A stretch of DNA of 5,805 nucleotides, from positions 1 to 5,805 of the forward strand of contig SLIC01000032.1 in assembly GCA_007135845.1 (NCBI GenBank), read 5' to 3'. The first letter of the stretch is position 1. Every line of letters begins with the position of its first letter. The notes under the pieces are model-generated. The model was not told the DNA's origin, did no database searches, and saw only the letters and a list, made by a program, of their open reading frames with translations. The stretch comes from Candidatus Brevefilum sp. Lineage in GTDB: Bacteria > Chloroflexota > Anaerolineae > Anaerolineales > Anaerolineaceae. Both the position numbers and the translations under genes were made by a program. Of the stretch, positions 596 through 5,805 are shown in pieces.

Positions 596-2437
596 TCACT
601 CCACCTTCACTGATTTTGCCAGGTTGCGCGGCTGGTCCACGTCCAATCCCAGCAGTGAAGCAATGTGATATGCAAACAACTGCAGCGGGATGCTGGTGAT
701 CACCGGACTGAGCAGCCAGGGCGTCTCTGGCACCCACAGGATGTTGTTCGTCAAACCTGGGATCAATTCATCACCGTCGGTGGCCACCGCGATCACCTCC
801 CCGCCGCGGGCCATGGCCTGCTCGATCTGGCTGATCATCTTGTCGTACCAGGGGTCCTTGGGTGCCAGCGCTACCACCGGCATGGATTTATCGATCAGGG
901 CAATCGGGCCGTGTTTCATCTCGCCTGCCGGGTAGCCTTCTGCATGGATATACGAAATTTCTTTGAGCTTCAAAGCACCCTCGTAAGCAATCGGCATGTT
1001 GATGCCGCGCCCCAAGTAGAGCATGTGACTGGTGTTCTTGAATTTTCGCGCTAAGGCCAAAACATCATCTTCACGATTAAGGCACTCCCCAACCAGGGAT
1101 GGAATCGCCATCAGGTCGCTGACCAGGTTGAAACGCTGTTCCCGGTCAATCACACCGCGTAGATCGGCTAAATAGATCGCCAGCAGGTACAGGTCCAGCA
1201 GCGGCGCGGTGAATGCCTTGGTGGAGGCCACCCCAATTTCAGGTCCCACCTGCATCGAGATGCAGCCGTCCGCTATCCGCATGGCCTGTGAGCCAATTGC
1301 ATTCACATTCGACCACAGCTTGGCACCCTTCGTACGACCCTCCTCCATCGCAGCGAGGGTATCCGCCGTTTCACCGGATTGGCTGATAGCCAACACAACA
1401 GTCTGCGCATCCACCAGTGGATCTGCATAGCGAAACTCCGAAGCTATGGCCACTTCCACCGGCACCCGGGCAATCTTTTCCAGCAATATCTTCCCGACCA
1501 TGCCCGCATGGGCAGCGGTGCCGCACGCAGTGATAATGATTTTGTTAATATCCCGAGCGGTTGCCTCATCCAGGTTCAGCTCGTGAAGCATGACACGTCC
1601 CTCTTCAAAGTCCACCCGGCCCGCCAGGGTGTCGGTTAGGGAGCGCACCTGCTCGTGGATTTCCTTCTGCATGAAGTGCCGGTAAGCCCCTTTTTCCGCC
1701 GCCACCGGGTCCCAAGATATATTCTGAACCTGGGGTTTCACAACCTGGCCGTCCACTGTATAGATTTCGTAACCTGTGCTAGTGACCACTGCCATCTGGT
1801 GCGATTCCAGGAACACTGCCCGCCGGGTATGCTCAAGGATGGCTGGCAGGTCTGAAGCGATAAAGTTCTCGCCCTCTCCCAACCCGATCACAACACCCCC
1901 AGCATTGCCAATACGGGCGGCAACAATCTTATCCGGTTCCCGCGAAGACATCACCACAATCCCATGTGCGCCTTTCAACTGGCGCAAGGTCTGCTGGACA
2001 GCAGACACCAACGAGGAATCCCTGGTATAAAACCTTTCTACCAGGTGCACAATCGTCTCAGTATCCGTATCCGACCTGAATTGTGCGCCTTCTGCGCTGA
2101 GCTCTTCACGTAAAGTGAGGTAGTTTTCAACAATGCCGTTATGCACCACAACAAATTCTCCCGTGCTGCCCAGGTGGGGATGCGCATTTCGTTCGTTTGG
2201 TTCACCGTGGGTCGCCCAGCGTGTGTGTCCAATGCCAATCTTGCCATGGATGGGCGTATCGCACACCAGCGCTTCCAGCCGGCTCAACTTACCAGCATCC
2301 CGCCGGATTTCGATACTGCCATTGTCTAAAACTGCCAAACCTGCCGAATCATACCCCCGGTATTCCAATCGCTTCAGTCCACTTAAGATGATCGGTGTCG
2401 CATCACGTTCACCAATATAGCCAACAATACCGCACAT
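596..2437 (-). CDS. glmS: Glutamine--fructose-6-phosphate aminotransferase (isomerizing), glucosamine-6-phosphate synthase
   Basis: This is a complete 613-residue enzyme of usual family length. It makes glucosamine-6-phosphate from fructose-6-phosphate and glutamine, the first committed step towards UDP-GlcNAc, peptidoglycan and other amino sugars, in the cytoplasm. The N-terminal class II glutaminase domain (about 1-240) starts MCGIVGYIG, so Cys2 becomes the N-terminal nucleophile. It also shows RLEYRGYDSAG (23-33), HTRWATHGEP (71-80) and HNGIVENY (99-106). Two SIS sugar-isomerase domains follow: the first with ACGTAAHAG (304-312), SQSGETADTL (352-361) and ASTKAFT (404-410), the second from about 460. 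The isomerase residues corresponding to E. coli Lys485, Glu488, His504 and Lys603 are Lys490, Glu493, His509 and Lys608. The C-terminus DQPRNLAKSVKVE is the canonical tail. The ATG at 2437 is firm because Cys must be residue 2, and GGAGG lies 9 nt upstream. The gene stands alone between a convergent and a divergent neighbour and is controlled by the ribozyme in its leader. No key residue is missing. Confidence 0.98.
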   Translation of the reverse strand: MCGIVGYIGERDATPIILSGLKRLEYRGYDSAGLAVLDNGSIEIRRDAGKLSRLEALVCDTPIHGKIGIGHTRWATHGEPNERNAHPHLGSTGEFVVVHNGIVENYLTLREELSAEGAQFRSDTDTETIVHLVERFYTRDSSLVSAVQQTLRQLKGAHGIVVMSSREPDKIVAARIGNAGGVVIGLGEGENFIASDLPAILEHTRRAVFLESHQMAVVTSTGYEIYTVDGQVVKPQVQNISWDPVAAEKGAYRHFMQKEIHEQVRSLTDTLAGRVDFEEGRVMLHELNLDEATARDINKIIITACGTAAHAGMVGKILLEKIARVPVEVAIASEFRYADPLVDAQTVVLAISQSGETADTLAAMEEGRTKGAKLWSNVNAIGSQAMRIADGCISMQVGPEIGVASTKAFTAPLLDLYLLAIYLADLRGVIDREQRFNLVSDLMAIPSLVGECLNREDDVLALARKFKNTSHMLYLGRGINMPIAYEGALKLKEISYIHAEGYPAGEMKHGPIALIDKSMPVVALAPKDPWYDKMISQIEQAMARGGEVIAVATDGDELIPGLTNNILWVPETPWLLSPVITSIPLQLFAYHIASLLGLDVDQPRNLAKSVKVE

Positions 2438-2517
2438 AAGCTTAATCCTCCAAGATGATGGTTCACACAGGCATCCACGAGTAAAACCGTCCTGCAGGTC
2501 TCAATGGAAACAAGGTA
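2438..2517 (-). other. glmS leader between ribozyme and start codon
   Basis: About 80 nt separate the last plausible ribozyme helix from the glmS ATG. Apart from the Shine-Dalgarno at 2447-2451 and a short palindrome CCTGCAGG at 2491-2498, I see no clear structure, open frame or regulatory site in it. Confidence 0.5.
2447..2451 (-). promoter_or_regulatory. Strong Shine-Dalgarno of glmS
   Basis: Read on the minus strand, GGAGG precedes the glmS ATG (2437-2435) with a 9-nt spacer. It lies well downstream of the ribozyme core, so ribozyme self-cleavage would leave the ribosome binding site and the reading frame intact on the downstream fragment. This fits the known mode of action, in which the cleaved 3' product is degraded rather than masked. 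Confidence 0.8.
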
Positions 2518-2682
2518 TGAATTGTGTCTGTTGTGGGAACTCACTACGGTTGTAGCGGGAGGCATCCGCCGATCTCTCGATTTTCCTGATCTAATTCAGT
2601 TAGCCCTGGTCTGCACCAGGGAACCTCCATCCTCGTCACCAACCCGAGCGTTGCAACTATCAAGGGGCTGGCCAGGCGCTTT
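2518..2682 (-). ncRNA. glmS ribozyme (GlcN6P-activated self-cleaving riboswitch) in the glmS leader
   Basis: On the minus strand, upstream of glmS, the conserved blocks of the glmS ribozyme occur in order. AAGCGCC carries the expected cleavage site between A2680 and G2679. A P1 helix forms between CCAGCCC (2671-2665) and GGGTTGG (2645-2639), 7 bp with one G-U. TGACGAGGATGGAGGTT (2638-2622) follows, then CGGCGGATGCCTCCCG (2571-2556). GGAGG (2628-2624) can pair with CCTCC (2562-2558), and CGCC after the cleavage site with GGCG (2570-2567). Downstream, CGCTAC/GTAGTG (2557-2552 with 2547-2542) and alternatively TGAGTT/AATTCA (2543-2538 with 2523-2518) could form the variable 3' helices, so the 3' boundary is approximate. 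In characterised examples GlcN6P acts as the catalytic cofactor, and cleavage leaves a 5'-hydroxyl mRNA that is degraded, which lowers GlmS synthesis. The position directly upstream of glmS confirms the call. Between 2621 and 2572 there is an unusually long variable insertion, listed separately. Confidence 0.95.
2572..2621 (-). other. Peripheral insertion within the glmS ribozyme, with extra hairpins
   Basis: Between GGAGGTT and CGGCGGATG lie 50 nt, where the B. subtilis ribozyme, as I recall it, has about 10. The segment contains a perfect 7-bp hairpin CCCTGGT-GCAG-ACCAGGG (2621-2604) and directly after it a weaker hairpin CTAA-CTGAA-TTAG (2603-2591). A third, short stem-loop CGA-GAGA-TCG (2579-2570) with a GNRA-type loop adjoins the conserved block, and its last base belongs to that block. 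The conserved nucleotides on both sides are intact, so it reads as a peripheral expansion, not a disruption. Confidence 0.7.
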
Positions 2683-2705
2683 GATTCCCAAGCCGATATT
2701 CACTT

Positions 2706-2781: not shown

Positions 2782-3939
2782 ATGTCAGAGCATAAAACAC
2801 AACAATCCTTCCCCACGTGGGTATTGATCGTCTTTCAAATTGGTATTGTGATCCTATCGATCGCAATTGGCTACTTCGGCCGGGGTATTATCGCCGGTTA
2901 CCAGGGCGATTTCCCGCTGCTAAGTGAAGCACGCGATGTCCTCGTTCAGAATACCATCCTGGAGATCCCTCCCGAACCTGCCCTGGAATACGGGATGATT
3001 CGGGGGATGCTGACGGTGATGGAAGATCCATACACCCATTTCATTGAACCTGCCGTCCACGAAATCCGCACAAATGAGTTAGCGGGGCGTTTTGGCGGCG
3101 TGGGCGTACGCGCAGAAAGGGACACCCAGGCGAATTGGCGCCTTTATCCCCTACCAGACTCACCCGCCCAGGCTGCCGGCATTGTGGACGGCGACATGCT
3201 CATAGCCGTTGATGACCAGGAGATCACCCCAGATACCGACGAACTGGATTTGATTGCCACCATCCGCGGGCCAGAAGGTGAAAATGTCCAGCTCACCGTC
3301 CAACGAGCGCTTGAGACTCTCACCTTCACAATTGAACGCCAGTGGGTTCCTCTGCCCTCAATCACCTGGCATCTCTTGCCTGAAGCACCCCAGATTGGCG
3401 TCATCAGGGTTCACCGGATCGCGGATACTACCGCCGATGAAATCCAGGAAGGCATTGAAGACCTGCTGGTGCAGGATGCCCAGGCGTTGATTCTCGACCT
3501 CAGGGATAATGGCGGTGGTTTGGTTGAAGCAGGGGTAAGGATTGCACGTCTATTCCTCGAATCCGGCGAAGTCATCAGCCAATCGTTTAAAGGCGAAGCT
3601 GTCAAAACTTTCGAAGTTGAGCAGCCCGGACCATTTGTTGACCTGCCAATGGTGTTATTGATCAATAACCACACCGCCAGCTCAGCGGAAATCGTTGCAG
3701 GTGCACTTGCTGCGCAGCAACGTGCCACACTGATCGGTACCGCCACCCACGGCAAAACCAGCATTCAATTCATATTCGAGCTGCAGGACGGCTCCAGTGT
3801 GAACATCACCAGCGGGCGCTGGTGGGTCACTGGTGTCGATTTTCCCCTGGAGCCTGATCTTGTCGTGTCTGATGACCCAGAGGGCGTCGTCTTGATGCAA
3901 ACAGCAATCGTAGTTTTAGAACCCTACATCCAACCATAG
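2782..3939 (+). CDS. S41 family (C-terminal processing) serine peptidase, membrane anchored
   Basis: This is a complete 385-residue protein of the Ctp/Tsp type, which cleaves proteins near their C-termini outside the cytoplasmic membrane. A short N-terminal tail is followed by one hydrophobic segment (about 12-31, WVLIVFQIGIVILSIAIG), a signal anchor without an obvious cleavage site. The region at 65-90 (GMIRGMLTVMEDPYTHFIEP) is typical of the family. A PDZ domain spans about 99-180, with GRFGGVGV and AAGIVDGDMLIAVDD. The S41 protease core (about 203-365) shows LILDLRDNGGGLVEAG (236-251), NNHTASSAEIVAGAL (295-309) and THGKTSIQF (322-330). Ser300 and Lys325 are 25 residues apart, as are Ser430 and Lys455 in E. 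coli Tsp, and Gln329 stands at the expected +4 from Lys, so it should be active. ATG 2782 is the first possible start after the in-frame TGA at 2773. The Shine-Dalgarno is weak (GTGAG at 2768-2772). It is divergent from glmS and convergent with the acetyltransferase gene, so probably monocistronic. The substrate is unknown. Confidence 0.93.
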   Translation: MSEHKTQQSFPTWVLIVFQIGIVILSIAIGYFGRGIIAGYQGDFPLLSEARDVLVQNTILEIPPEPALEYGMIRGMLTVMEDPYTHFIEPAVHEIRTNELAGRFGGVGVRAERDTQANWRLYPLPDSPAQAAGIVDGDMLIAVDDQEITPDTDELDLIATIRGPEGENVQLTVQRALETLTFTIERQWVPLPSITWHLLPEAPQIGVIRVHRIADTTADEIQEGIEDLLVQDAQALILDLRDNGGGLVEAGVRIARLFLESGEVISQSFKGEAVKTFEVEQPGPFVDLPMVLLINNHTASSAEIVAGALAAQQRATLIGTATHGKTSIQFIFELQDGSSVNITSGRWWVTGVDFPLEPDLVVSDDPEGVVLMQTAIVVLEPYIQP

Positions 3940-4540: not shown

Positions 4541-5805
4541 TCAATCCGAACTGAAAAAAGCATCTCTAAGTTTGGCAATGTCTGCTTCCTGGTCAACATC
4601 AAACGCGTCTCGGCGGTCCACCCAGGTCAGGTAATCAAGCTTATACTTGCTGAAGACCGCCCGTCCACCCTGGTCACCCGCGATCGTCATCAAAGCATCA
4701 AATGCTTCCCGCCCAAACAAGACCGGGTTGCCCCGCTGCCCTCCCACCAGGGGCGCAGTGATTACCGACCGCTGCACATTGTGCCGTTCGATCAGTTGAC
4801 GGATCATGAAGGGTGAAACCTGGGGTTGATCACTTAGCAAGAACATCACCCGATCACAGGAAGGGGGCAGGGCTGCCAGCCCAATTTTCATCGAGGTGGA
4901 CTGTCCTTTTACCCAATCCGGGTTGTAGACACATGTCACAGGTAAGTTGGACAAAACCGCTTCGATCTGCTCACGGTCTGAACCTGTGACCACATAAACC
5001 GGGTTCAACCCGGCTGTGATGGCATTTTGCACCACCTGCACAATGAAGGGCTTGCCACACCAGTCTAAGAGCTGTTTGGGTTGTCCCAAGCGTTCACTGC
5101 CGCCAGCAGCCAGGATAATGCCTGCTGTCTGGCTGTGCGCGCAAAAAACCGGTCCATCCGGTTGGGGGTGGTGTAAGGAGCCAATCAGCACCCGGTTGTA
5201 AACGCTGCACATTTCATCAGCAAGCCTGGCACCCTGTGCCATACGAATCTCACCTTCAGCCTGGTTCAGGAACAACGCCTTATTAGCCCCTTCAGGGATG
5301 CCTTTGAGTCCACCTGCAGTTGATCCCAATACCTTCGCCAGGTGTTCCACCTGGATGATTTCTCCGGGTTGCATCTCTGCCAGTGTTCCAAAGATCTCAG
5401 GGCGGTGTACGGTTTCTGCGTCCAATGGCTTACCAATACCACCCAACCCTGACACAACCAACACATGGTTGATCCAGGACGGGATCACCGGTTCGTAACT
5501 GGCTGGTGCTTTAAGCGGCTTTGAGCCAGCACCATCCGCTTCAATCAGCAATGAATAGCCATTTTCAGCACAGAAATCGTGCACGGCTTGCAAAGACCGG
5601 TCATCCAGACTCGATAATCGCTCCCCTTCAACCTCTGTTCCGGTGAGCAACACAGTATTCATGCCTTCATCAATCACCTTTTTAAGCGCTTCGGGTGATG
5701 TGAACAAATCATGGCGATCGGCAAATGCTGCTTGCCAGGTACCCAAGTGGGTGGTTGTGGTCAGGACAACTGGCGGAGGCAATTCCCTCGCCAGGGTAAA
5801 CATGG
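4541..5805 (-). CDS. YqeC-MocA fusion: selenium-dependent hydroxylase accessory domain plus molybdenum cofactor cytidylyltransferase-like domain (5' truncated)
   Basis: 421 codons are at least partly visible, the outermost one incomplete, and the frame runs off the right edge. Numbering here starts at the Met at 5803. Residues 1-212 match YqeC, the accessory protein of selenium-dependent molybdenum hydroxylases: VVLTTTTHL (12-20), LLIEADGAGSKPLKAP (85-100) and VVSGLGGIGKPL (116-127). YqeC proteins normally begin with a P-loop just before an ALARELR-like helix, so MFTLAREL is almost certainly internal and the P-loop lies outside the window. Residues 226-420 form a MobA-like nucleotidyltransferase: LAAGGSERLGQPKQLL (231-246) is the NTP-binding loop, SDQP (324-327) the metal-binding motif, and NPDWVKGQSTSM (294-305), GQRGNP (355-360), GDQGGR (376-381) and DVDQEADI (402-409) complete the family set. 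LAAG rather than LAGG favours MocA (CTP) over MobA (GTP). The protein is inferred to activate molybdopterin and deliver a selenium-containing cofactor to xanthine dehydrogenase-like enzymes, in the cytoplasm. Which nucleotide is used is inference. Confidence 0.88.
   Translation of the reverse strand, partial: MFTLARELPPPVVLTTTTHLGTWQAAFADRHDLFTSPEALKKVIDEGMNTVLLTGTEVEGERLSSLDDRSLQAVHDFCAENGYSLLIEADGAGSKPLKAPASYEPVIPSWINHVLVVSGLGGIGKPLDAETVHRPEIFGTLAEMQPGEIIQVEHLAKVLGSTAGGLKGIPEGANKALFLNQAEGEIRMAQGARLADEMCSVYNRVLIGSLHHPQPDGPVFCAHSQTAGIILAAGGSERLGQPKQLLDWCGKPFIVQVVQNAITAGLNPVYVVTGSDREQIEAVLSNLPVTCVYNPDWVKGQSTSMKIGLAALPPSCDRVMFLLSDQPQVSPFMIRQLIERHNVQRSVITAPLVGGQRGNPVLFGREAFDALMTIAGDQGGRAVFSKYKLDYLTWVDRRDAFDVDQEADIAKLRDAFFSSD

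Follow-up and report, generated by a model that had tools for sequence, protein, structure and literature searches.

A structural variant of the glmS ribozyme class before glmS in a contig assigned to Chloroflexota, with relatives before glutamine synthetase operons

The glmS locus and its leader

The window, that is the whole stretch of 5,805 nt analysed here, carries glmS on its minus strand, an S41/PDZ carboxy-terminal-processing-type protease gene in divergent orientation (2782-3939, +) and a single minus-strand ORF (4541-5803) which joins a YqeC domain to a MobA/MocA-like nucleotidyltransferase. In the gap that separates glmS from the divergent protease gene, a perfect inverted repeat at 2710-2735, CATTATACTG-n6-CAGTATAATG, provides TATAAT on both strands; it is overlapped by a plus-strand promoter-like match from a pattern scan (2706-2734). 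The glmS leader harbours an RNA whose predicted cut lies about 240 nt upstream of the glmS start. Its parts, and the gene that follows, are listed below; CM hits are the 100 aligned hits of a covariance model, and nucleotides are numbered after PMC7125110.

2711..2716 (-): -10-like TATAAT, candidate promoter by sequence reading; weak, as the pattern scan gave no minus-strand promoter here
2684..2690 (-): P0 5' strand UGGGAAU, formed by leader sequence 5' of the cut; swap tests, and in the minimum-energy fold
2679..2680 (-): predicted cut, A(-1)/G1; 96 of 100 CM hits have A(-1) and 99 have G1
2673..2678 (-): P2.2 5' strand CGCC, bulged U6, G7
2665..2672 (-): P1 5' strand; changes on both sides in 7 of the 8 pairs
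2638..2645 (-): P1 3' strand; same covariation set as the 5' strand (16 leaders)
2633..2635 (-): P2.1 5' strand CGA, core C28 G29 A30; all three in 100 of 100 CM hits
2624..2628 (-): P2 5' strand GGAGG; both covariation sets
2604..2621 (-): inserted hairpin P2b, 7 bp, GCAG loop; pairs changed on both sides 6/7 (16 leaders) and 7/7 (CM hits)
2586..2599 (-): inserted hairpin P2c, 4 bp; 4/4 pairs changed on both sides in both sets
2578..2581 (-): A42 U43 C44 G45, cofactor-pocket side of P2.1; 100, 99, 100 and 100 of 100
2566..2571 (-): P2.2 3' strand CGGCG and G57; C52, the G at position 54, C55, G56 and G57 in 100 of 100
2558..2562 (-): P2 3' strand CCUCC; both covariation sets
2544..2555 (-): P3 hairpin; minimum-energy fold, pairing kept in the closest relatives
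2534..2540 (-): P0 3' strand GUUCCCA; swap tests, and in the minimum-energy fold
2447..2451 (-): Shine-Dalgarno GGAGG of glmS, by sequence reading
596..2437 (-): glmS, glutamine--fructose-6-phosphate transaminase (isomerizing), 613 aa; TIGR01135 774.8 bits (cut-off 418), SIS and GATase domains

A glmS-class ribozyme below the Rfam cut-off

An earlier note on this DNA had proposed a glmS ribozyme at 2518-2682 on the minus strand, with all conserved blocks, a covarying P1 helix and glmS directly downstream. This reading holds: RF00234 matches at 2522-2691 (-), A(-1) lies at 2680 and G1 at 2679, the sequence has the helices P1, P2, P2.1 and P2.2 along with the core blocks AU and CGG, P1 covaries among the 16 leaders, and glmS is the next gene, with its GGAGG in place. 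The score, for which that note had named a value well above the gathering cut-off as support, is below it (31.7 bits, obtained at a permissive threshold, against 37), so that a default Rfam scan misses this RNA and indeed reported nothing in the window. The match itself is significant (E 7.5e-6 in 401 bases and 1.1e-4 over the whole window), and a second covariance model, R2, trained on eight glnA leaders alone with neither the window nor any glmS leader among them, reaches 59.2 bits with an E-value of 5.6e-22, a rough figure given the short calibration (the tool itself calls such E-values rough). Model R1, whose training set (A2) contains the window, is not independent of it. What the note had missed are the structural variation, that is P2b, P2c and P0, and the placement of relatives before other genes.

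Judged on its sequence, the segment 2534-2690 (-) is confirmed as a structural variant of the glmS class of ribozymes, predicted to be GlcN6P-activated. It has the core fold of the class, P1 and P2 with pseudoknots P2.1 and P2.2, retains each of the catalytic and cofactor nucleotides A-1, G1, C2, G29, A42, U43, G56 and G57, and lies in the 5' leader of glmS. Since the gathering score is a database cut-off, membership is claimed for the ribozyme class and not as a curated RF00234 hit of at least 37 bits; the closest relatives score 37.6 (L172) and 35.9 (L161). The RNA resembles RF00234 in its double-pseudoknot core, A/GCG cut site, CGA/UCG P2.1, pocket AU, G57 and position before glmS. Besides its lower score, it differs by a 43-nt insert with two hairpins, and leader positions left unpaired in the RF00234 structure line are paired in P0. 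The minimum-energy fold of the core has P0, P1, P2, P2b, P2c and P3. Its folding energy is not unusual, either for the 166-nt core (z -1.09, 32 of 200 shuffles as good) or for the 263-nt leader (z 0.01 against shuffles).

Inserted hairpins and core residues

In the window, the 43 nt holding P2b and P2c separate P2 from the pocket strand of P2.1. In relatives, with whose leaders the window aligns over the ribozyme core, this joint runs in the order P2b, YUAA, P2c, GRAAAAUCGA and replaces a joint of about 4 nt; the window thus lacks the short joint (about 4 nt, P2 to P2.1) of the Firmicutes type, which 22 of 22 Firmicutes leaders have. Among 16 leaders, a 36-pair structure has 94.4% of its cells paired and 25 pairs changed on both sides, and none of 500 shuffles was as high on any of five measures. 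P1 and P2 covary in this set; P2.1 and the P2.2 pairs C2-G56, G3-C55 and G7-C52 are present but never vary and so contribute no covariation. A 30-pair structure over the 100 CM hits (98 distinct), aligned by fitting to R1 (A5), gave a covariation of 0.811 against 0.228 when shuffled; the 27 pairs changed on both sides in A5 are not exceptional, 43 of 500 shuffles reaching that number. Between the window and its closest relatives, the sequences of P2b, P2c, P3 and P0 have changed with pairing retained. Comparison with relatives strongly supports P2b and P2c as helices inserted beside the cofactor pocket. McCown, Roth and Breaker (2011, RNA 17:728) reportedly described Deinococcus-Thermus variants with extra core stems and a changed supporting architecture, so there may be precedents for the additional stems seen here.

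Core position G29 corresponds to G2634 in the window, where it would serve as the general base. Across the CM hits the core is near-invariant (A-1 96, G1 99, C2 99, G29 100, A42 100, U43 99, G56 100 and G57 100 of 100). G29 is taken as the general-base position after PMC11602151. P2.2, for its part, occurs in coupled forms. The window's form, CCTG/CGGCG, with C5-G53 and a bulged U6, is found in 20 of 100 rows, and the commonest, CATG/CAGCG, with U6-A53 and a bulged A5, in 47. A third, GCTG/CAGCG, in which C5-G54 and U6-A53 form and position 4 is bulged, accounts for 11 rows, all 11 from glnA operons; CACG/CAGCG, with a C-A mismatch, accounts for 9, and rarer forms make up the other 13. The two commonest forms and the glnA form each have five pairs and one bulge. 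PMC7125110 reports little conservation of the 5-53 pair among natural ribozymes and interprets several in vitro rescues as bulge shifts, which makes it plausible that the P2.2 forms seen here are active states.

Host assignment

The best GlmS matches in the class sample (genomes of the class of G001, Anaerolinea sp. Tomsk_49_42, locus L001) are 82.1% (L172, G271) and 81.9% (L161, G251) identical over about 500 residues. Since the nearest GlmS proteins thus belong to the class that includes an Anaerolinea MAG, the host is placed in Chloroflexota, in line with what the earlier note had surmised. Among the 80 GlmS matches listed, 27 are 60-75% identical, 26 of them labelled Anaerolinea, Anaerolineae or Chloroflexi and one Spirochaetaceae, and the other 53, from other groups, do not exceed 52%. 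The glmS ribozyme class is best known from Firmicutes, which could point to a contaminating Firmicutes contig or to recent acquisition from that phylum. We regard this as exceedingly improbable, given a GlmS 82% identical to those of the Anaerolinea class and at most 52% identical to those from outside Chloroflexota among the matches listed, and given that no P2b/P2c insertion occurs in the 22 Firmicutes leaders. No report of a glmS ribozyme in Anaerolineae or Chloroflexota was found in the literature searched, and the glmS passages of PMC2258182 and PMC3766115 report none from Chloroflexi.

A helix between the leader and the 3' side of the ribozyme

P0 pairs the leader just 5' of the cut (2684-2690) with the segment after P3 (2534-2540). 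In a regex set of 131 leaders, which mixes glmS and glnA leaders, includes two Firmicutes rows and has some mis-set starts (e.g., L010, L110 and the second row of L210), native partners scored 18.0 against 14.65 for swapped partners (sd 0.24). The excess recurs in 74 leaders (17.1 against 13.5) and in 30 leaders of which any two differ at no fewer than 6 of 12 positions (16.3 against 12.3, sd 0.45; 0 of 200 swaps as high). Firmicutes rows were excluded from these dissimilar-leader tests and from the 47-SD, 105-leader and accessibility tests below. The 22 Firmicutes leaders, which are the regex matches among 32 Firmicutes loci and four earlier ones, gave 11.1 against 10.4 (sd 0.33), a far smaller excess of two sd. 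A yes/no count of helices of at least 5 bp is a weak measure here: 104 of 105 leaders natively, 85-93 with swapped leaders, and 17 of 22 in Firmicutes. These comparisons strongly support P0 as a predicted helix of the relatives' ribozymes, with little or no signal in Firmicutes.

Occurrence before glmS and other genes

RF00234 matches were found in 140 of 298 class genomes, over the cut-off in 88, and matches to the lineage model R1 (E 0.001 or better) in 184 and to R2 in 168, the class-wide searches having used stricter filters at which weak matches are lost. The Rfam threshold would thus hide many such RNAs, 88 genomes being over the cut-off against 184 with the lineage model. In eight Anaerolineae-type genomes, hand-picked from the list of GlmS loci, RF00234 matched in 8 of 8, and six had a second match before a glutamine synthetase gene (identified at L089 by TIGR00653, 520.7 bits). 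We classed 129 distinct ribozyme places in 118 Anaerolineae genomes by tblastn or first ORF; these come mostly from the top of each match list rather than from a random draw, other R1 and R2 matches being left out, and Pfam or NCBIfam was applied to one protein per kind, to which the rest were assigned by tblastn. Of these places, 108 precede glmS and 20 precede other genes:

glnA directly downstream: 5 places
Ada-type gene, then EamA, then glnA: 8 places, 8/8 in this order
FAD-oxidase, glutamate-synthase-like, glnA operon: 1 place
glutamate-synthase-like genes: 2 places
DegT/DnrJ aminotransferase: 3 places, with a glmS remnant following in one locus
YvcK/CofD-phosphosugar mutase fusion: 1 place
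contig end: 1 of the 129 places

A further place, L288 (G069), where the contig ends after Ada, stands outside the counts, and L101, at a contig end, is unclassed. At fourteen of the 20 places without glmS, the RNA heads a glnA operon. The Ada-type gene was considered as a new target and set aside, since in larger regions all eight such places continued through EamA to glnA. Both G251 and G271, the window's closest relatives, carry the glnA type, and in G001 a glnA leader lies at 193332-193497 of contig C10. On nine glnA-leader places, RF00234 scored over its cut-off in five and below in three, and gave no match at E 0.01 in L232. The glnA and Downstream-peptide glutamine riboswitches likewise occupy leaders of glutamine-metabolism genes; unlike these, the glnA leaders of the relatives share the glmS-type core, and most match RF00234. 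Nearly all members of the class reportedly lie in glmS mRNAs (McCown, Roth and Breaker 2011), and titles and abstract openings yielded no report linking a glmS ribozyme with glutamine synthetase or glnA.

Among genomes of the class that includes Thermobrachium celere (Clostridia), RF00234 matched in 75 of 196, twice in one. Among Firmicutes loci glmS was the gene in 32 of 32 (30 from that class, one Marinithermofilum and one Selenomonas). R1 found nothing in 60 Bacteroidia genomes, taken as a negative control, a set without a known positive. At L215, a 50-residue C-terminal remnant of glmS (4824-4973) follows ribozyme-led DegT and Gfo/Idh genes, which look as though they had taken the place of glmS downstream of the ribozyme. 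At L217 (G253), a CofD/YvcK domain is fused to a phosphosugar mutase behind the ribozyme, and glmS with further matches lies on the same contig.

Predicted mechanism and alternatives

We propose that GlcN6P, on accumulating, would bind beside the A2680/G2679 bond and serve as cofactor for self-cleavage, which would leave a glmS mRNA minus its leader and lower glmS expression in a feedback loop. In the window, an RNase J-type nuclease would most likely then degrade the 5'-OH mRNA. This decay route is described for the glmS ribozyme in PMC7125110 and PMC11476745, and since 55 of 60 class genomes encode RNase J family proteins (TIGR00649) it is available to the lineage. Through P0, the leader would be tied to the ribozyme's 3' side. 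We consider it highly probable that the glmS leader works in this way, with cofactor-dependent cutting, feedback on glmS and probably RNase J-type decay.

Were the RNA instead an inactive relic, which folds but no longer cuts, or a non-cleaving GlcN6P aptamer, the sub-threshold Rfam score and the large insertions beside the pocket would fit. This is nevertheless very unlikely, since the catalytic positions hardly vary among the 100 CM hits and are intact in the window, and P2.2 retains five pairs and a single bulge in its glnA form as well as in its two commonest forms. A different output deserves more weight. P0 occupies the segment after P3; on cutting it might fall apart, and the segment could then pair with the glmS Shine-Dalgarno (SD) and turn the gene off without a nuclease or, in some glnA operons, pair with sequence beside a terminator. 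In 107 glmS leaders (105 of a Chloroflexota-like set and two Firmicutes), SD pairing of the P0 3' region scored 16.86 against 15.05 with swapped SDs (sd 0.22, maximum of 50 swaps 15.51), other leader regions scoring 12.7 and 13.0, and with 47 dissimilar SDs it scored 15.71 against 13.99, none of 200 swaps being as high. Relatives with strong SD pairing include L009, L131 and L150. In 64 of 105 leaders, the best P0 helix and the best SD helix overlap by 2 nt or more within one segment, which suggests that cutting may release the leader and free an anti-Shine-Dalgarno in many relatives. The 22 Firmicutes leaders had no SD-pairing excess (11.84 against 11.69, sd 0.36), and after the cut predicted SD accessibility drops by over 0.1 for 27 of 93 leaders, with a rise of that size for 3 (1 and 1 of 21 in Firmicutes). 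Against this, SD pairing scored simply as present or absent does not exceed chance (78 of 105, 63-80 in SD swaps), for which reason the score test was relied on; the mean change in predicted accessibility is small (0.23 to 0.16); and the long-range pairing in glnA leaders is mostly sequence-conserved and not significant (native 21.8, swapped 20.1, sd 0.56, maximum 22.1). The window itself has no CCUCC-like partner, and its SD has a predicted accessibility of 0.42 both cut and uncut. Gating of expression by cleavage is thus a real possibility, if somewhat short of an even prospect, and, as a translation switch, could be tested against decay through RNase J. RNase J-type decay is the output we prefer for the window.

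The glnA-leader subtype of the relatives might sense another ligand, such as glutamine or UDP-GlcNAc, as it precedes glutamine synthetase operons and has its own P2.2 bulge, the GCTG/CAGCG form confined to glnA operons in the 100 rows. We deem this unlikely, for the pocket residues A42, U43 and G57 are retained in glnA rows and the shifted bulge resembles the rearrangement inferred for the rescue of in vitro mutants (PMC7125110). With GlcN6P kept as the ligand, a broader role can be envisaged, tentatively and with rather more doubt than belief: the Anaerolineae glmS ribozyme may sense GlcN6P for a regulon that comprises glmS, separately the glnA and glutamate-synthase-like operons, and amino-sugar genes, cleavage acting as a strand-release switch through P0 to free an anti-Shine-Dalgarno or anti-antiterminator. 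The window would carry the P0 half of such a switch. If true, the reach of the glmS ribozyme would widen from one gene to nitrogen assimilation together with amino-sugar supply. The variant adds to the class two core helices at the cofactor pocket and a helix made with the 5' product.

Two further observations concern glnA-operon leaders. A terminator-like hairpin lies at 4464-4493 of L291, shuffles giving 0.8 by chance, and a 6S RNA (75.4 bits) is found at 1245-1421 of L232, just upstream of the glnA-operon ribozyme-like RNA.
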